Source: an uncultured Bacteroidia bacterium (lineage in GTDB: Bacteria; Bacteroidota; Bacteroidia; NS11-12g; UBA9320). Taken from it: a stretch of DNA of 58,342 nucleotides. This document shows positions 49,115-55,767 of the stretch, piece by piece. Both the position numbers and the translations under genes were made by a program. A model generated the notes under the pieces. That model did not search any database, was not told the DNA's origin, and was given only the letters and a program-made list of their open reading frames with translations. Location: assembly GCA_905478335.1 (NCBI GenBank), contig CAJQIC010000023.1, positions 1 to 58,342 on the forward strand. The letters run 5' to 3'. The first letter of the stretch is position 1. Each line of letters starts with the position of its first letter.

Positions 49115-49939
49115 TTATTTACCCCGGGTTTGGCATTTACAGTCTTTATCAACAACTCCAGTTGCTCCAGAAGCAGTGACACACTTGTCGCCGATATTCT
49201 TCTTCAAGTCTTTGCAATCGTAAGTAGGTGTATTACTTGACGTCTCACATTTACAATCCTTATTGATTTTGCCAACAGCGCCAGTTGCAGTTTTGCATTT
49301 GTCGCCAATGTTCATTTTTATTTTTTCGCAATCATACTTTGGTGTGTTGTCTTTGCCTTCGCACTTACAATCTTTTGTTACAACACCAACCGTACCTGCA
49401 GCCGTTCTGCACTTGTCACCAACATTCTTTTTGATTTTCTCACAATCGAATTTAGGTGTGTTGTCTTTGGCTTCACACTTACAGTCTTTTGTTATAACAC
49501 CGTACTTGCCAGTGGCAGTTTTACATCTATCACCAATATTCTTTTTGATTTTCTCACAATCGTACTTTGGTGTATTGTCTTTGGTTTCACACTTGCAATC
49601 TTTCGTTACAACGCCAACCTTTCCGGCTGCTGTTTTGCACTTGTCACCAACATTCTTTTTGATTTTTTCGCAATCGTATTTAGGTGCATCAGTCTTTGTT
49701 ACACAATCACAATTTTTGTCTACGTAACCAACCTTGCCTGTTTTGGTTTTGCACTTGTCTTTGAAGTTTAGTTTCAGTTTAGGACAGTCGTACTTCTTGT
49801 CATTGTCTTTTTTGCGTTGTTCTTTTTTCTGCTTAAGAATTTTGCGAATTGTATCGCGATCAGAATCATCTTTACACGCTGTTAAAGTGAATAACGATGC
49901 CGTTAAAAGAATAGCAACTAGTTTAAAAGTGTACTTCAT
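49115..49939 (-). CDS. Lipoprotein made of six cysteine-rich 38-residue repeats
   Basis: 274 residues. The signal peptide ends with lipobox LFTLTAC and is followed by a basic, charged linker (about 26-50). The rest is six tandem units of about 38 residues, each with four cysteines in the pattern DC-x9-KC-x11-DCxC (unit type YDCEKIKKNVGDKCKTAAGK). Units 2-5 are nearly identical, pointing to recent duplication. The cysteine spacing recalls DC..N.GD.C repeats of other Bacteroidota surface proteins. Function unknown; the repeats may be disulfide-bonded or bind metal. Confidence 0.85.
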   Translation of the reverse strand: MKYTFKLVAILLTASLFTLTACKDDSDRDTIRKILKQKKEQRKKDNDKKYDCPKLKLNFKDKCKTKTGKVGYVDKNCDCVTKTDAPKYDCEKIKKNVGDKCKTAAGKVGVVTKDCKCETKDNTPKYDCEKIKKNIGDRCKTATGKYGVITKDCKCEAKDNTPKFDCEKIKKNVGDKCRTAAGTVGVVTKDCKCEGKDNTPKYDCEKIKMNIGDKCKTATGAVGKINKDCKCETSSNTPTYDCKDLKKNIGDKCVTASGATGVVDKDCKCQTRGK

Positions 49940-50035
49940 TTCTAGATTTTTGGAGCGGCTAAGATATGAATTCTCAGAGATTTAGATTCTTTAATCCGTC
50001 AACCATTTGTCAGAATTGCGCAGAGGTAGCTACTT

Positions 50036-50650
50036 CTAACTATTGAACCATTTGCTTTTTTTGATTGGGATGTTACGGTTTATCTTGCGAACATGGAAAA
50101 ATGAAGGAACGTCTGTAGTCCATTTTTTGAGCGACAAGATCTTGAGTAATATTTCGATGCGACTGACAAGACCTAAACCAATGCAGATCCAGTAGAGCCA
50201 AAAACTCTCATGATTCAAACAGAGGTCGATAAGGAAGAGTAGGAGGGTGGCTGTCCATAACTTAGCTAAGATTGAATGGGTTGCGATGGGTTTTTTGAAG
50301 CGCACAAAACTAACCAGATAGGTCAACGCTTCCAGACCAATGACCACGCCAATTATAATCAAGTTACTTTTTAGAAATGTGGCATTAATTAAAAAAATAC
50401 AGGCTATCGCTGAGAGCCAAAACACCTGATCGGCGTTTGAATCCCAGATGCGCAGTTTCTCGGAAGACACACCCCATTTTCTTGCTAAAACACCATCGAA
50501 AAAATCTGAAACAATTCCACCAAGCATAAGCGCCACAATCCATTGATCACGCATCGGAAACTCTATAAAGCAAAACAGGATAAACAAACCGGCACTCACA
50601 ATTCTGCTGTACACCAAGTAAAACGGAATCTGATTTCGGAATGATTTCAC
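50036..50650 (-). CDS. CDP-alcohol phosphatidyltransferase family protein
   Basis: 204 residues with about five membrane helices. The motif D-x2-DG-x2-AR is present (D49, D52, G53, A56, R57) and D70-x3-D74 completes it, but the usual Gly four residues before D70 is Leu66. The family transfers a phosphoalcohol to make phospholipids such as phosphatidylglycerol phosphate. The substrate is not determined. The stop is 9 bp away from the GNAT remnant upstream. Confidence 0.88.
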   Translation of the reverse strand: MKSFRNQIPFYLVYSRIVSAGLFILFCFIEFPMRDQWIVALMLGGIVSDFFDGVLARKWGVSSEKLRIWDSNADQVFWLSAIACIFLINATFLKSNLIIIGVVIGLEALTYLVSFVRFKKPIATHSILAKLWTATLLLFLIDLCLNHESFWLYWICIGLGLVSRIEILLKILSLKKWTTDVPSFFHVRKINRNIPIKKSKWFNS

Positions 50651-50659
50651 AATAGCAAT

Positions 50660-50821
50660 TTACGACAGTTGCTTTGAATACAAACAAAGAGTCTCATCAC
50701 TGGGCTGAATGTGTTCCTTAAAAGTGAAACCTAGTTTGGTCAATAACTGGATGCTTCTTTCGTTTTTTTCAATCGTTACGGCTTGCCTAATCAGCAGACG
50801 ATCTGTTTCGATAATGTACAT
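50660..50821 (-). pseudogene. GNAT acetyltransferase remnant with a large internal deletion
   Basis: A 53-codon frame. It begins MYIIETDRLLIRQ, the usual N-terminus of RimJ/RimL-type GNAT enzymes, and jumps at once to NERSIQLLTKLGFTFKEH ... LCLYSKQL, their usual C-terminus. About 100 residues holding the acetyl-CoA site are missing, with the frame kept. It is read as the debris of a GNAT gene, not a working enzyme. Confidence 0.72.
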
Positions 50822-50836
50822 CGGGTCATTTCAATA

Positions 50837-51313
50837 TCAAAGAGCTACCTCAAAGTACCTCGAGACCCTGGTTTGATTAATGAAACTGGCGTAACCAAAA
50901 GACGTATCCATTGCTGTACTTGTCCCCTCAATTACGGTTGCAATGTCAAGGTATGTACTTTGCGGTGTAAACGTTGCTGTTCTAAAATGTTGCTTGAGTT
51001 CGTCAGAAGTCGAACAGAACTTCTGTTCCAAAGAATAGGCAAATACAAGATGTCCCAAGCTACTGTCACCAATTAACTCGAGAATCATGGTGTCACTGTT
51101 CATATCTATCGGCACAGAAAAAAGATTTCCACCGTAACCAAATACCGTGTCACCATTACCTGATGCATTAATAAATAATATGCCCAATGTGTCGTTTGGG
51201 TTGGTCTTGAATTCAAGGCTAGGTTCGCTTGCAAATCCATCACAATCGACCACTGGGTCGTCACTACAACCACTCATAAACATGAAACATGAAAGAATGA
51301 TGAACTGCTTCAT
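50837..51313 (-). CDS. Small predicted lipoprotein
   Basis: 158 residues with lipobox MFMSGC. The rest is beta-rich with no recognised domain; two further cysteines occur (Cys of VVDCDG and KFCSTS). It overlaps the barrel gene upstream by 4 bp (ATGA), so the two are coupled. Confidence 0.65.
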   Translation of the reverse strand: MKQFIILSCFMFMSGCSDDPVVDCDGFASEPSLEFKTNPNDTLGILFINASGNGDTVFGYGGNLFSVPIDMNSDTMILELIGDSSLGHLVFAYSLEQKFCSTSDELKQHFRTATFTPQSTYLDIATVIEGTSTAMDTSFGYASFINQTRVSRYFEVAL

Positions 51314-51993
51314 TTCTTTTTCTTTTTAATTTGATTCAACACAATGTGGACGCCAAACCCAGGGTTAAACGAGCCATTTCTCGTAACACCAATCGCTGGT
51401 ATATATTGATGGTCGAGCAAAGTTTGTTCTATGATGGAATGGTTGGTGAATTGTACAGGATAGATGTCGAAACGTATAACACGATCTAAAATCACCTCGT
51501 ATCCCAGTCGGAAGATGGTATATTGATAGGGCACATTTTCTTCTGAAATCTGGCCAGAAAAACTAGGGTAATAATTGCCCGGAAATTCTTTTTCACCTAA
51601 AAAGTGAAGCGTGCCCAAACCCATACTGAAAGAGGCTACAAACCCATGCTGGAGTCTATACGTCTTAACCGGTTTGTAATAATTCGTTGATAAAAATGAA
51701 ACGCCAATTCCAGCATATCTCCCCGTAGTCTTAGTGGTCGAGAAACCCATTAAATTGTAGTGCGTATGGTCTGCAGTGCCTCCTTCTACTTTAATCTCAG
51801 TGTGTGGGATGCCCCTAAAATTATATTCCAACATATAGGCATATCGACTTCTTACTTGAATGCCGGCCGTATGCATTGTGTAGGGTTTGTATGGTAGAAA
51901 CGTGTCTGACGCTATAGAATCTGTTACAGGTTTAGACTGACCAACCGTAATTGTCGAAAGTAATAAGAGCGGTATGATAATCAGTTTAAACAC
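51310..51993 (-). CDS. Predicted outer-membrane barrel protein
   Basis: 227 residues with a signal peptide ending around Val-Gly-Gln-Ser. The body has an alternating strand pattern (GIQVRSRYAYMLEYNFRG, FRLGYEVILDRVIRFDIYPVQF). It ends with a lysine-rich tail rather than an aromatic residue. No family was recognised. First gene of a pair with the lipoprotein. Confidence 0.6.
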   Translation of the reverse strand: MFKLIIIPLLLLSTITVGQSKPVTDSIASDTFLPYKPYTMHTAGIQVRSRYAYMLEYNFRGIPHTEIKVEGGTADHTHYNLMGFSTTKTTGRYAGIGVSFLSTNYYKPVKTYRLQHGFVASFSMGLGTLHFLGEKEFPGNYYPSFSGQISEENVPYQYTIFRLGYEVILDRVIRFDIYPVQFTNHSIIEQTLLDHQYIPAIGVTRNGSFNPGFGVHIVLNQIKKKKK

Positions 51994-52124
51994 AAAGCGA
52001 AATTACAAAACCATCTGAAATGGATAAATTATAACTGCCTGATTTATAGGACAGAAGAAAAAAGTTTAATTTCACACCAACCATAAGTAATCTCAATCCG
52101 TAATGGTTAGTAAAATTGATTCAA

Positions 52125-53732
52125 ATGAAAAAAATAGTACCCTTTTTAACCCTGTTGGTTGGGATTTTAGGATTTAACACAGTTCAAGCACAATGCAAGG
52201 CCGACTTTTCGTTTTACACGAATGGCAACGGCACCTTTGTATTTGTCGATTCTTCTGGAAATAGATATACGACAGAAGACTGGACTTTTGGAGATGGGAC
52301 AGGATCCAGAAACAATTCGGGGCAAGTAAGCCATTCGTACAACGCCACTGGCAATTATACTGTTTGCAGAACAGTTTGGGATTCGATGAGTTCGTGTCGT
52401 GATACGTTCTGCACACAAATTACCTATACAACATCAAATTGTAAAGCAGATTTCAAGGCCGCTGTGTCTGGTGATACGGTTCAATTTCGTGACGCGAGTA
52501 ATGGAGCAGTTTATTATTCGTGGGATTTTGGCGACAACAAATCGTCGACTTCAGCTAACCCACAGCATGTTTATGCAAAATCTGGAACATACAGGGTGTG
52601 CTTGACCATTGTTGATAGTGCGAGAACATGTATCGATACCTATTGCGCAACGGTTAAAATTGGCTCTGGTTGCGATGCCAGCTGGACGGCCGGTAGTCAA
52701 AACTTGAGTGTTGGCTTCAGACTCAACAATTCTGCAACAGGTCGAATTTCATACAGTTGGAGTTTCGGTAACGGAGGTTCGTCTGCTCAAGCTAACCCTG
52801 TTTACACCTATTCTACACCGGGTACTTATTTAGTATGTCTTGATTTATACGATTCTACGCTAAATTGTTCAGATCGCTATTGTGATTCTGTTACTGTTGA
52901 TACGTCTAACAACACTGGATGTCGTGCTGTTTTTACAGCTCAAGTAACAAGAGATACCGTAGTGCAACTCACCAACTGGTCGCAAGGTTTTACCAATTTT
53001 AAGTGGTACTTCCCTAACGGGAATACGTCTACCAACAGACACGAGAATATTACCATAAACAAACCAGGTACGTATACAATTTGTCTTTTTGCAGAAGACA
53101 GCGTTTCTGGCTGCCAAGATTCAGTTTGTCAGACCGTTACTATTGATTCAGCTCGCGGTGGAGGATGCCGAGCGGCGTTTAGAGTTGCTGTTGATACATC
53201 TCAAAAATTCAAGTTATTCCTAATCAATGGCTCATCTAATAAATCGACTCATACTTATTCTTGGTCGTTTGGAGATGGCGGAACCAGCACAAAAAGAAAC
53301 CCAACCCATAAGTACAGAGCTTTTGGAAGCTATTGGGTATGTTTAACGATTGCGGACTCAACTTTAAACTGTACCTCAACCTATTGTGATTCACTGGGTC
53401 TTGACTCTACAGGGAGGTTGTTGAAAGCAGATGGATTTGAACTTGAGGTAATAGAGGATTTTGTTTCTGTTCCAGAGACAAAGAAGGTGAATTACAACCT
53501 TTATCCAAACCCTACATCAGATGAGGTTACCGTACAACTAGATAATAATGCAGGTGAAAATGCACACATAAGCGTATACAACTTACAAGGAAGATTAGTT
53601 GCTACATCCACTTTTGGTCTAAACTTTAAGGCAAAGGTTAACTTAATGGATGAAGTAGATGGGTTGTATTTGGTACGCATATTTGATGGTAATGACTACA
53701 CACAAACCAAGATCATGAAAATGAGTAAATAG
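52125..53732 (+). CDS. T9SS type A secreted protein with five PKD-like repeats
   Basis: 535 residues from the ATG at 52125, which starts a signal peptide ending VQAQ. Five PKD-like units follow (WTFGDGTGS, WDFGDNKSS, WSFGNGGSS, WYFPNGNTS, WSFGDGGTS), each ending in C-rich patterns (YTVCRTVWDS, YRVCLTIVDS). The last 80 residues are a type A T9SS signal (YNLYPNPTSDEVTV ... VDGLYLVRIF). The PKD units are likely stabilised by Cys pairs. A terminator follows and then, 8 bp later, a sigma factor gene. Confidence 0.9.
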   Translation: MKKIVPFLTLLVGILGFNTVQAQCKADFSFYTNGNGTFVFVDSSGNRYTTEDWTFGDGTGSRNNSGQVSHSYNATGNYTVCRTVWDSMSSCRDTFCTQITYTTSNCKADFKAAVSGDTVQFRDASNGAVYYSWDFGDNKSSTSANPQHVYAKSGTYRVCLTIVDSARTCIDTYCATVKIGSGCDASWTAGSQNLSVGFRLNNSATGRISYSWSFGNGGSSAQANPVYTYSTPGTYLVCLDLYDSTLNCSDRYCDSVTVDTSNNTGCRAVFTAQVTRDTVVQLTNWSQGFTNFKWYFPNGNTSTNRHENITINKPGTYTICLFAEDSVSGCQDSVCQTVTIDSARGGGCRAAFRVAVDTSQKFKLFLINGSSNKSTHTYSWSFGDGGTSTKRNPTHKYRAFGSYWVCLTIADSTLNCTSTYCDSLGLDSTGRLLKADGFELEVIEDFVSVPETKKVNYNLYPNPTSDEVTVQLDNNAGENAHISVYNLQGRLVATSTFGLNFKAKVNLMDEVDGLYLVRIFDGNDYTQTKIMKMSK

Positions 53733-53750
53733 AGAATTCATTCTAACATC

Positions 53751-53778
53751 AAACGGGGTTAGCAATAACCCCGTTTTT
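53751..53778 (+). terminator. Intrinsic terminator between the PKD protein and the sigma factor
   Basis: AAACGGGGTTA / TAACCCCGTTT, an 11-bp perfect stem with loop GCAA and two more T's after the stem. The sigma factor ATG (53786) begins 8 bp later, leaving no space for a separate promoter. Confidence 0.9.
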
Positions 53779-53785
53779 GCCTTTT

Positions 53786-54346
53786 ATGGCCATAGATAAA
53801 AAGCTGATTAAAAACTGTTTGAAGAACGACAGACGTTCTCAGAACGAACTCTACAAAGAGTTGTTTAGCTTTTTAATGAATATATGTATCCGATATAAAA
53901 ACAACTATGATGACGCGGGAGCAGCGTTAAATACAATATACCTGAAGGTGCTTAAAGGGTTAGAAACGTATCAAGATGATAAGGCGATGTTGCCATGGGT
54001 AAAAACGATAGCTGTGCGGCACTTGATAGATGAATATCGGTCAGACAAACGCCATGAAGCCATCGCACTTGATGCCGTCCCAAACCAAAGGGTGAATGGG
54101 TACAGTGTCAGTCATGATAAGTTAAACGTTGATGATATTTTGACCATGTTAACCAAGCTCCCTATCAACTCACGGAATGTTTTTAACCTGTATGTTTTGG
54201 ATGGGTATAAACACAGAGAAATTGCAGATATGTTGGGTATGAGTGAAGGAAATTCAAAATGGCATTTAAACCAAGCTAGAACCCAGCTACAACAAATGAT
54301 TAAGCATGAGCAAAATCGAACAGAGAAAATAAGATTGGCACAATGA
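53786..54346 (+). CDS. ECF-type sigma-70 family sigma factor
   Basis: 186 residues from the ATG at 53786; the TTG three codons upstream falls in the terminator. A short region 2 with LNTIYLKVLKGLETYQDDKAMLPWVKTIAVRHLIDEYRSDKR and a region 4 with LPINSRNVFNLYVLDGYKHREIADMLGMSEGNSKWHLNQAR (helix-turn-helix). It overlaps the next gene by 4 bp, the likely anti-sigma. It must be transcribed either by readthrough of the terminator or from inside the PKD gene. Confidence 0.93.
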   Translation: MAIDKKLIKNCLKNDRRSQNELYKELFSFLMNICIRYKNNYDDAGAALNTIYLKVLKGLETYQDDKAMLPWVKTIAVRHLIDEYRSDKRHEAIALDAVPNQRVNGYSVSHDKLNVDDILTMLTKLPINSRNVFNLYVLDGYKHREIADMLGMSEGNSKWHLNQARTQLQQMIKHEQNRTEKIRLAQ

Positions 54347-55767
54347 GCGATTTGAAAAATATAGACGAAATATTCAAAAATGGGGCAGAGAAGCAATACC
54401 CTGTAGATGAAATTCTATGGGCTGAGGCTTCGTCACAACTTGATGCCGTCTATCCTGTTCGTAAAGCAAATAAAGGTTGGATATACATAAGCTTAGCACT
54501 GCTTGTGAGCGTTGGTATTATTTATGGTATATCGTCATTGATGAAAAAGGATAACAGCGTTAGCGAATCTGTTTCTCAAACCGAAATAAAGAATACACAG
54601 GCGGCTAACAGCAACAAGGCTGAGATAGCATCCGATGATGTATTAGACCATGCGTCATCACAAGAAATTGTGTTTGCTGAGTTGGACGAATCACCAATAA
54701 ACAAAGCCAAAACCCAAAGCCAGACTTCTGAACCGAAACAACATGTAAAAGACGAAGAATCTAACCCTGAACTCCGAACTCAAACAGTAGCGACAATGGA
54801 ACCAGATGCCAAGGAAATTAAGGCAGTTCAAGATGCTCCTTTAAGAGATATGTCAAGCCAACCTATGGTTGAGTCTCAGCCAATCCGCAATAAAGAAGAT
54901 AAGGGCGAAACGAATAAGGAAATCAATACCGAAAACAAGAATACACCAACCTACGCACCAGTACCAGATATCAAAGCAAGTGCGGTGACAGAAGTCGAGT
55001 TGGTGAACAAAGACCAAGATGTAGGCGCAGAAAATCAGTCATCATATGTTGTAAACCCTCGATTGTCTAATTGGTTTGTTACCCTAAATACTGGCTATTC
55101 ACATATCACAAACAATACATCGGCTAATCCGATTGTTGAAAACGGTTTGTGGCATACACAAAAGGGTGGTTTTTCTTTTGGTGTAAGTGGTGGATGTCGA
55201 CTAGACAGATTCAGCCTTTCTGCTGGTCTGGGGCAAGCGACCTTCAACAGTACTTATGAAGCAATGATAGCGCCCGAGCCAAGGCTTGATACAATTTCGA
55301 GTTACTATGCGTTAGTGACTAATGAATTTTTGTTCAACGAAAAAGTAGTTTCTTTAATTGAAAGACGCTACAACACAGAATTGGTGTTGGACAGTAATGC
55401 AACCTCTGAATCGATTATAGGCAAATCAAAAATAAGTTACGTCACTATTCCTGTTCAGATCGGTTATACACTTCCTTTGGAAAGATTTGAGGTGACTGCT
55501 TTGGTCAGTTCAACGTTTATGGTTAAGCCAAAATTTACGCATTCAGCGCCATCAAATTTTGCTTCAATTATGAAGCAGAATGAACAGGCCATTAGGCCCA
55601 GCCTTGTAAGACCAGCAATCCACCTAGGGCTCGGGTATCGTTTGACAACCAATTTTAGCGTCCATGCCGAAATCAATGCGGCAACCACGAACCAATCAAT
55701 GCTAACAACAGAAGGAGAGCGTGTGAACACCATAGGATTTAAAATGGGAATAATGACCCGGTTTTAG
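54343..55767 (+). CDS. Dual-membrane anti-sigma protein with C-terminal beta-barrel (Dma-like)
   Basis: 474 residues. A cytoplasmic N-terminus (1-44) is followed by one membrane helix (about 46-66), a long polar disordered linker (about 70-240; rich in Lys, Glu, Gln, Thr), and a C-terminal outer-membrane barrel domain (about 241-474) that ends in Phe. The chain would thus cross both the inner and outer membranes. This is the architecture of the dual membrane-spanning anti-sigma (Dma) factors described in Bacteroides thetaiotaomicron. It is coupled to the sigma factor by an ATGA overlap. Function by architecture only. Confidence 0.82.
   Translation: MSDLKNIDEIFKNGAEKQYPVDEILWAEASSQLDAVYPVRKANKGWIYISLALLVSVGIIYGISSLMKKDNSVSESVSQTEIKNTQAANSNKAEIASDDVLDHASSQEIVFAELDESPINKAKTQSQTSEPKQHVKDEESNPELRTQTVATMEPDAKEIKAVQDAPLRDMSSQPMVESQPIRNKEDKGETNKEINTENKNTPTYAPVPDIKASAVTEVELVNKDQDVGAENQSSYVVNPRLSNWFVTLNTGYSHITNNTSANPIVENGLWHTQKGGFSFGVSGGCRLDRFSLSAGLGQATFNSTYEAMIAPEPRLDTISSYYALVTNEFLFNEKVVSLIERRYNTELVLDSNATSESIIGKSKISYVTIPVQIGYTLPLERFEVTALVSSTFMVKPKFTHSAPSNFASIMKQNEQAIRPSLVRPAIHLGLGYRLTTNFSVHAEINAATTNQSMLTTEGERVNTIGFKMGIMTRF

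Follow-up and report, generated by a model that had tools for sequence, protein, structure and literature searches.

Introduction

In classical cell-surface signalling, the FecR periplasmic domain of an anti-sigma factor contacts a separate TonB receptor. Dual-membrane anti-sigma factors form a class that the available accounts describe as present in, and confined to, Bacteroidota (PMC9308784, PMC13114119, PMC13088901). EcfO-Reo, in which the sigma factor activates surface proteins and on which NigD surface lipoproteins depend, was characterised first in Bacteroides fragilis (PMC13114119), and a pair from Phocaeicola vulgatus was described in 2022 as spanning to an outer-membrane barrel (PMC9308784). 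The name Dma comes from Bacteroides thetaiotaomicron. According to the available text of that study, a Dma protein is defined by an N-terminal anti-sigma domain, a transmembrane helix, a disordered tether and a barrel, and its gene adjoins that of an ECF21 sigma factor; the Dma2 operon runs in the order sigma, Dma, DUF4943, DUF4858, and das2 and bt_1557 rise by 4.5-6 log2 units when dma2 is deleted (PMC13088901).

Two further systems link ECF sigma factors with T9SS. In Porphyromonas gingivalis, the T9SS CTD surface protein PorA is reported to feed an ECF sigma pathway (PMC7712824), and in Flavobacterium psychrophilum a CGT-box ECF promoter class, SM6, is reported to cover T9SS genes together with one sigma/anti-sigma pair (PMC9723704). 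Here we describe an ECF sigma/anti-sigma locus from an uncultured Bacteroidia bacterium, analysed within a window of 58,342 nucleotides (contig CAJQIC010000023.1, assembly GCA_905478335.1), and compare it with these systems.

Organization of the locus

A sequence-only reading of the window had proposed a sigma/anti-sigma pair at 53786-55767, directly after the gene of a T9SS surface protein. The open reading frames and Pfam agree with the pair, and the preceding gene carries a PF18962 sorting domain, so that both proposals stand. The features of the locus are as follows.

52077..52102, + strand: putative ECF-type promoter CCAACC-N16-CGTA before the cargo gene (CAAC at 52078, CGT at 52099; conserved boxes)
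52125..53732, + strand: predicted T9SS type A cargo with PKD domains (likely start ATG 52125; the longest ORF begins at TTG 52116)
53751..53776, + strand: terminator-like hairpin in the gap between cargo and sigma genes (11 pairs, 5 with a compensatory change among four genus members)
53786..54346, + strand: ECF sigma factor, 186 aa (ATG 53786; Pfam Sigma70_r2 and Sigma70_r4_2 above cut-offs; placed in the sigma tree)
54343..55767, + strand: anti-sigma factor, 474 aa (ORF, AlphaFold2 model, profile-profile comparison of both ends)
54343..54471, + strand: predicted cytoplasmic anti-sigma domain, aa 1-43 (two helices around conserved Trp26; model and profile match)
54472..54543, + strand: predicted inner-membrane helix, aa 44-67 (AlphaFold2 model, hydropathy peak)
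54544..55071, + strand: predicted disordered periplasmic tether, aa 68-243 (pLDDT mostly 35-47; composition)
55072..55764, + strand: predicted C-terminal outer-membrane beta-barrel, aa 244-474 (model, structural alignment, homology to Dma-type barrels)
55282..55386, + strand: predicted extra beta-hairpin in barrel loop 2, aa 314-348 (window model against short-loop model; loop lengths)

The start of the anti-sigma ORF overlaps the sigma stop by 4 nt. Anti-sigma homologues with the same neighbours recur in three other members of the genus (G001, G002 and G003), so the arrangement is not a product of chance.

The surroundings of the operon held several separate observations. A divergent gene pair at 50837-51993 on the minus strand, encoding proteins of 227 aa and 158 aa, the latter lipoprotein-like, lies beside the operon in G001, G002 and G003 as well, and neither protein has a Pfam match. 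At 49115-49939, also on the minus strand, the window encodes a lipoprotein-like protein with about six Cys-containing repeats (YDCEKIKKNVGDKCKTA...KDCKCET), which is found in G001 too. In a further genus member (locus L046, G004:C5, match 63982-64230) all that survives is a C-terminal anti-sigma fragment interrupted by a stop codon. It lies close to the aldehyde dehydrogenase gene found after the operon in other genomes, with no adjoining sigma factor or T9SS partner, which looks like loss of the system in that genome.

Predicted anatomy of the anti-sigma factor

We modelled the anti-sigma factor with AlphaFold2 from a 38-row alignment of the window protein and 37 relatives (mean pLDDT 65.3). 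The N-terminus is predicted to form helices at 4-18 and 23-36, followed by a single transmembrane helix at 44-67 that coincides with the hydropathy peak. Residues ~70-239 are mostly modelled as unstructured, at pLDDT 35-47, and the linker as a whole counts 176 residues (68-243). Strands then run from 244 to 473, most blocks at pLDDT 73-96, and the last residue is Phe. The sequence-only reading had assigned the protein a cytoplasmic end, one inner-membrane helix, a linker of ~170 residues and a C-terminal outer-membrane barrel ending in Phe, and the model bears out each of these; the barrel, which it had placed at 241-474, is predicted, with its start shifted to near 244.

When the barrel was compared by VIA-align and Foldseek with known outer-membrane barrels, solved structures among them, the VIA-align Z scores were 17.7 for an Escherichia coli OmpA model, 16.8 for NspA, 15.9 for OprF and OmpA and 15.6 for OmpW. 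The Pfam family OMP_b-brl matched the barrel at E 3.8e-5 and 24.4 bits, below its curated cut-off of 28.7, and Pfam gave no other strong family match for the anti-sigma factor. A single uninterrupted reading frame is kept throughout the clade, with both ends conserved. The model thus confirms a predicted composite of cytoplasmic helices, one transmembrane helix, a disordered tether and an OmpA/OmpW-like barrel. Signalling of the classical FecR type was considered and rejected, as Pfam and NCBIfam returned no FecR match and the barrel is fused to the anti-sigma factor.

Relation to Dma and Reo proteins

For comparison we assembled 18 loci from NigD-bearing genomes, found with the window-clade sigma profile (one of them, L178, without a detected sigma ORF), and aligned 14 of their anti-sigma factors for profile-profile comparison. 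The barrel of the window group matched these Bacteroidales Dma/Reo-type rows with a probability of 98.9 (E 1e-17) and the N-terminal domain with a probability of 98.1 (hhalign, E 1.2e-13). Two of the 14 rows (L187 and L188) lie in the order sigma, anti-sigma, DUF4943, with DUF4858 next in L187; since this matches the published order of the Dma2 operon, we take these rows to be its orthologues. In G345 and G337 the best sigma-profile matches are the sigma factors of the Dma2-like operons, which would be expected if these sigma factors formed one group, and the window sigma factor is typed as ECF by Pfam. A NigD gene adjoins the anti-sigma pair in L173 and L174.

From its anatomy and the homology of both end domains, the window anti-sigma factor is a Dma/Reo-type protein, as the sequence-only reading had suggested from resemblance. 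That reading had also proposed a sigma-binding N-terminus, with which the two modelled helices and their homology to Bacteroidales Dma-type N-termini agree; sigma binding is a prediction from sequence. Other parts of it need correcting. It had credited the type to B. thetaiotaomicron, which gave only the Dma name, the B. fragilis EcfO-Reo pair having been characterised first (PMC13114119). It had also presented the different lineage as news; a same-strand downstream gene with an early transmembrane helix is found at 118 of 137 sigma loci (the window, the order-wide matches and 80 named contigs, counted before duplicate loci were removed), and the named contigs span Flavobacteriales, Saprospiraceae, Sphingobacteriaceae, Crocinitomicaceae, Chitinophagales and others. 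The architecture is phylum-wide, and a Dma protein in another lineage is not in itself new.

The locus resembles Dma1/Dma2-Das1/Das2 of B. thetaiotaomicron in the parts of its anti-sigma factor (anti-sigma domain, transmembrane helix, disordered tether, barrel), in the position of the anti-sigma gene directly after that of the ECF sigma factor, and in having operon partners that are surface or lipoprotein-like, which in B. thetaiotaomicron are reported to be induced with the sigma factor (PMC13088901). It differs in that the partner here is a PKD-bearing T9SS cargo that lies before the sigma gene, behind a putative ECF promoter, in that loop 2 of the barrel is larger, in that its own genome is without NigD, and in a promoter motif unlike that of the Bacteroidales loci. 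As described for EcfO-Reo of B. fragilis and P. vulgatus, the anti-sigma factor would reach from the cytoplasm to the outer surface (PMC9308784, PMC13114119); unlike EcfO-Reo, the locus has a T9SS cargo where that system has NigD lipoproteins.

A T9SS surface protein is a conserved partner

The upstream protein matches PF18962 (Por_Secre_tail) at 51.3 bits against a cut-off of 27 and PKD_4 at 170 bits, with five PKD stretches recognised by Pfam, and its hydrophobic N-terminus (MKKIVPFLTLLV) is a putative signal peptide. The genome encodes the SprA translocon and 98 T9SS sorting domains. With a sorting domain, a hydrophobic N-terminus and T9SS in the genome, the protein is predicted to be a type A cargo.

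To follow this neighbour, we searched 108 genomes of the order with eight sigma factors as queries. A top group of 21 matches stood at E 1e-61 or better, with the next step down to 2e-56. In this closest group, a same-strand upstream gene with Por_Secre_tail and PKD domains was present by Pfam at all 20 readable loci (a count that includes both L049 and L050, which are near-identical copies), while among 37 weaker ECF matches Por_Secre_tail was found in 2 of 36 upstream genes (L069 and L071). The three-gene order also occurs in named contigs outside the 21, for example L094, L095 and L096, and in a cultured relative, Phaeodactylibacter luteus (L129). Sigma matches at 1e-45 are found in 50 of 395 genomes of the phylum. 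Within the cargo proteins, the last PKD module and the segment that follows it are conserved, and the N-terminal part consists of PKD repeats or of another, unnamed region.

A tree of 129 sigma factors groups that of the window with 23 others (support 85/85, branch not starred); in this clade of 24, the T9SS gene is present at 23 loci and the remaining one, L057, ends at a contig edge. Over the whole tree the T9SS label changes 10 times, where shuffles give 32, and well supported branches force at least 5 of the 10 changes; the link has therefore been gained or lost several times. It holds where sigma factors are only 35-40% identical and other neighbours differ.

T9SS genes lie at position -1 in 43 of 132 loci (duplicates included) and at other positions mostly in 1-9% of loci, with 18 of 96 (19%) at +3. 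PKD proteins, counted with duplicates removed, lie at -1 in 31 of 127 loci and at +2, just after the anti-sigma gene, in 35 of 112; most other positions have 0-4 loci, and +3 has 7 of 91. Six duplicate loci were left out of the sigma tree, the PKD position counts and the promoter counts: L093, L123, L132, L137 and L116 (copies of L043, L062, L059, L064 and L057) and L050, nearly identical to L049. T9SS labels in the named contigs, the position counts, the tree and the promoter counts come from our own iterated profile, and neighbour Pfam cut-offs were applied to the 20 readable loci of the closest group, the 36 weaker-match loci, selected own-genome and L127 loci, and the Dma2-like loci. The cargo proteins themselves supplied the sequences for the PKD profile, which detects PKD domains generally; among the downstream PKD proteins, L127 alone was checked with Pfam.

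The upstream T9SS/PKD gene is thus a conserved partner of the sigma/anti-sigma pair. The operon is the new part of the finding, and the T9SS neighbour, marginal in the sequence-only reading, proved to be the important one. Searches of the open-licence literature returned no paper on PKD domains together with anti-sigma factors and either T9SS or sigma factors, and none for the combination of ECF sigma factor, anti-sigma factor and outer-membrane beta-barrel in Bacteroidetes; given that scope, these are weak absences.

PorA offers a precedent, by analogy, for a T9SS protein that is linked with an ECF sigma pathway and could serve as its input. Unlike the window, the PorA route uses a two-component system, with PorX binding SigP, and the available text describes no barrel anti-sigma factor; PorA has a FimH-like domain, with no PKD mentioned there (PMC7712824), whereas the window cargo has PKD domains.

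A promoter-like motif precedes the cargo gene

When the region before the cargo gene was aligned among four genus members, two conserved boxes stood out from an unconserved spacer. In 25 loci of the clade, the form CAAC-N17-CGT occurs before the cargo gene in 22 and before the sigma gene in none. To arrive at these 25 loci, L057 was dropped from the 24 of the tree clade for want of sequence ahead of its sigma gene, and L097 and L071 were included on account of their T9SS gene and loop; of these two, L097 carries the motif and L071, which lies outside the tree clade, does not. In 12 other T9SS-linked loci the motif is found before the cargo gene in 8 and before the sigma gene in none, and is absent from 4. 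Where no T9SS gene is adjacent, it precedes the sigma gene in 65 of 94 loci, and of 56 preceding genes on the same strand it stands before 1. With the spacer set to eight other lengths between 13 and 21, each cell held 0-3 occurrences. The 131 promoter loci are not a random sample: they comprise the best 41 sigma matches of the order, the own-genome ECF matches that passed, and the 80 named contigs.

Since the motif stands before the cargo gene in T9SS-linked loci and before the sigma gene otherwise, it marks the first gene of the operon. A promoter motif before a sigma factor's own gene is the usual sign of self-activation. Given 22 of 25 before the cargo and 0 of 25 before the sigma gene, against 65 of 94 before the sigma gene elsewhere, the operon probably activates itself and begins with the gene of the surface protein. 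Because the motif precedes so many sigma genes of the group, we infer that the linked sigma factor, and not another, reads it.

The motif gives no basis for a larger regulon, a possibility we rejected, as the strict form CCAACC-N16-CGTA has 5 matches in the genome against 10 for a reversed control. The copy at 52077 is the only one of the 5 before a gene start, and the other four lie inside, or antisense to, longer ORFs. At other sigma/anti-sigma pairs of the genome the motif precedes the sigma gene in 1 of 7. In Bacteroidales Das-type loci, AAC-N17-CGT occurs in 3 of 17 and AAC-N18-CGT in 4 of 17, so the motif is not shared. A sigma-70 promoter scan returned 10 matches against 9.4 in shuffles, without excess. 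A comparable CGT-box ECF promoter is reported for F. psychrophilum SM6, which is described as controlling T9SS machinery genes, where the window has a dedicated cargo within the sigma operon (PMC9723704).

Between the cargo and sigma genes, a hairpin with a T-rich tail is found in 13 of 25 clade gaps under a looser criterion. By its sequence, the hairpin likely attenuates read-through into the sigma gene, and cargo transcripts would then outnumber regulator transcripts.

An enlarged loop in the barrel

A control model of the short-loop relative L108 is an eight-strand barrel; the window model has the same eight strands plus a hairpin (residues 314-348) inserted after the third of them. Measured from the TG to the IP motif, loop 2 has ~66-74 residues in the clade against ~37-41 outside it where cleanly measured; lengths were taken partly by eye, as automatic measurement erred for rows such as L095, L059 and many outside the clade, and 37 of 91 outside rows have no length. 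T9SS-linked loci outside the clade (L128, L135 and L158) have a short loop 2, so the large loop is a feature of the window clade and does not accompany every T9SS link. If the N-terminus of the barrel lies in the periplasm, loop 2 would face outwards, which makes the enlarged loop a candidate docking site.

Other ECF-linked loci

Further ECF-linked loci were noted during this survey. L034:5601-6890 (G000:C20, ~49600-50892), L091 and L092 encode anti-sigma-like proteins with an N-terminal transmembrane helix, a PKD domain and a C-terminal T9SS type B sorting domain (for the L034-type protein, CHU_C at 48.6 bits against a cut-off of 27, with weak matches to TIGR04131). By sequence, this type of anti-sigma factor might be threaded towards T9SS instead of carrying its own barrel. 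At L031, L032 and L035 (own-genome contigs C45, C20 and C19), a T9SS type A gene directly follows the anti-sigma gene, overlapping or touching its stop, and because of these three loci the genome has the T9SS link in two gene orders. L029:6425-8953 (contig C49) has, after an ECF sigma gene, an 843-aa gene whose product has a transmembrane helix near the N-terminus and a von Willebrand/YfbK C-terminal part. In other clades the +2 gene, as at L127:7903-9030 and further named loci, often encodes a PKD protein that begins like a lipoprotein and lies after a barrel anti-sigma gene, and a T9SS gene is often next. A separate sigma clade (L066-L068, L070, L072-L080, L041) is adjoined in several genomes by an enoyl-ACP reductase gene, and its anti-sigma factors end in a tail rich in Gly and Ser that holds a conserved SFPGIK/SFPGLK-like motif.

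A model for the operon and its alternatives

Building on the computed anatomy, the Dma/Reo-type homology, the conserved order of the three genes and the place where the promoter-like motif lies, we consider it probable that the locus is a three-gene operon, in which an ECF promoter drives the cargo gene and, through the hairpin, the sigma factor and its dual-membrane anti-sigma factor, and in which a surface change frees the sigma factor so that the operon activates itself. The ECF-type promoter CAAC-N17-CGT would drive production of the T9SS-exported PKD surface protein, and partial read-through of the hairpin would yield smaller amounts of sigma and anti-sigma factor. At rest, the N-terminus of the anti-sigma factor would hold the sigma factor at the inner membrane, with the tether spanning the periplasm to the outer-membrane barrel. 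Some change in the outer membrane or at the surface of the cell would be passed along the tether and free the sigma factor, presumably by conformational change or proteolysis, and the freed sigma factor would transcribe the cargo-sigma-anti-sigma operon. Precedents for such an output are das2 and bt_1557, which rise on deletion of dma2 (PMC13088901), and the NigD lipoproteins that depend on EcfO-Reo (PMC13114119).

What the barrel responds to is a separate matter. The conserved PKD tail and the enlarged loop 2 make docking of the cargo on the barrel plausible, and the loop may sense the surface protein, its loss or its failed export. A tentative proposal, which we rate as possible without counting it likely, is that the T9SS-exported PKD protein docks on loop 2, and that when cargo is missing, shed or unexported the sigma factor is freed and cargo, sigma factor and brake are remade.

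The strongest alternative, to which we give almost an even chance, is an ordinary Reo/Dma-type envelope-stress module, in which damage to the outer membrane, or folding stress, is what the barrel detects, and the T9SS protein serves as an output that protects or coats the surface and never as a ligand. The P. vulgatus pair is reported to respond to a membrane toxin with a protective regulon (PMC9308784), and EcfO-Reo is proposed to be an outer-membrane stress sensor (PMC13114119); the promoter position requires no more than an output, and other T9SS-linked clades (L128, L135, L158) have the short loop. Alone, however, such a module leaves unexplained why the cargo preserves a particular C-terminal PKD module with its following segment yet exchanges its N-terminal part, and why the enlargement of loop 2 is confined to the clade.

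It is unlikely that the anti-sigma factor fails to span both membranes in the cell, its tether being cleaved so that the halves act apart, or its barrel half never inserting. A disordered tether of 176 residues is open to proteolysis, and cleavage could itself be the signal; against this, the single frame is kept over the clade with both ends conserved, and homologues are described as reaching the surface (PMC13114119).

Slightly less probable still is a vesicle regulator, whose loss would raise outer-membrane vesiculation. The anti-sigma factor does resemble Dma1 and Dma2 of B. thetaiotaomicron, mutants of which are reported to hypervesiculate, but Dma1 is described as working via NigD1 and Dma2 via another route (PMC13088901); the genome of the window has 0 matches to NigD_C, and the putative regulon here is a T9SS cargo operon. 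The sequence-only reading had carried the vesicle link over from B. thetaiotaomicron, where it is a mutant phenotype that does not transfer with the architecture; nothing in our analysis bears on vesicles, and vesicle control as the main function was rejected for want of evidence at this locus.

That the T9SS gene is an incidental neighbour kept through slow decay of gene order is highly improbable: synteny at genus level does reach other genes, such as the divergent pair at 50837-51993, and T9SS genes are common in this genome (98 sorting domains), but the link persists at 35-40% sigma identity with differing other neighbours, the promoter lies before the cargo and not before the sigma gene, and T9SS genes at other positions near sigma genes occur mostly in 1-9% of loci (19% at +3).

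Implications

Our best reading of the operon is a Dma-type circuit rewired to control, and perhaps to sense, a dedicated T9SS surface protein, for which the role of ligand is suggested by its conserved tail and the candidate docking loop. The Dma/Reo class is known mainly from gut Bacteroides and from vesicles, and the present reading widens it. Across the phylum, its partners are surface proteins (T9SS/PKD proteins, PKD lipoprotein-like proteins, NigD and DUF4943), and the partner may hint at what is sensed. If the cargo does dock on loop 2, a single protein would wire the surface to RNA polymerase, reporting T9SS output or the pull on a PKD adhesin, and circuits built on this principle would be found elsewhere in Bacteroidota with different partners, such as PKD lipoproteins and NigD. 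Little is known of how Bacteroidota with T9SS verify that their surface proteins have reached the outside; P. gingivalis uses PorA, PorXY and SigP. The operon described here suggests a simpler circuit, with a surface protein, a sigma factor and a brake that reaches the outer membrane encoded together, the surface protein being the first target of the motif; the cell may use this switch to monitor or maintain its own outer coat.
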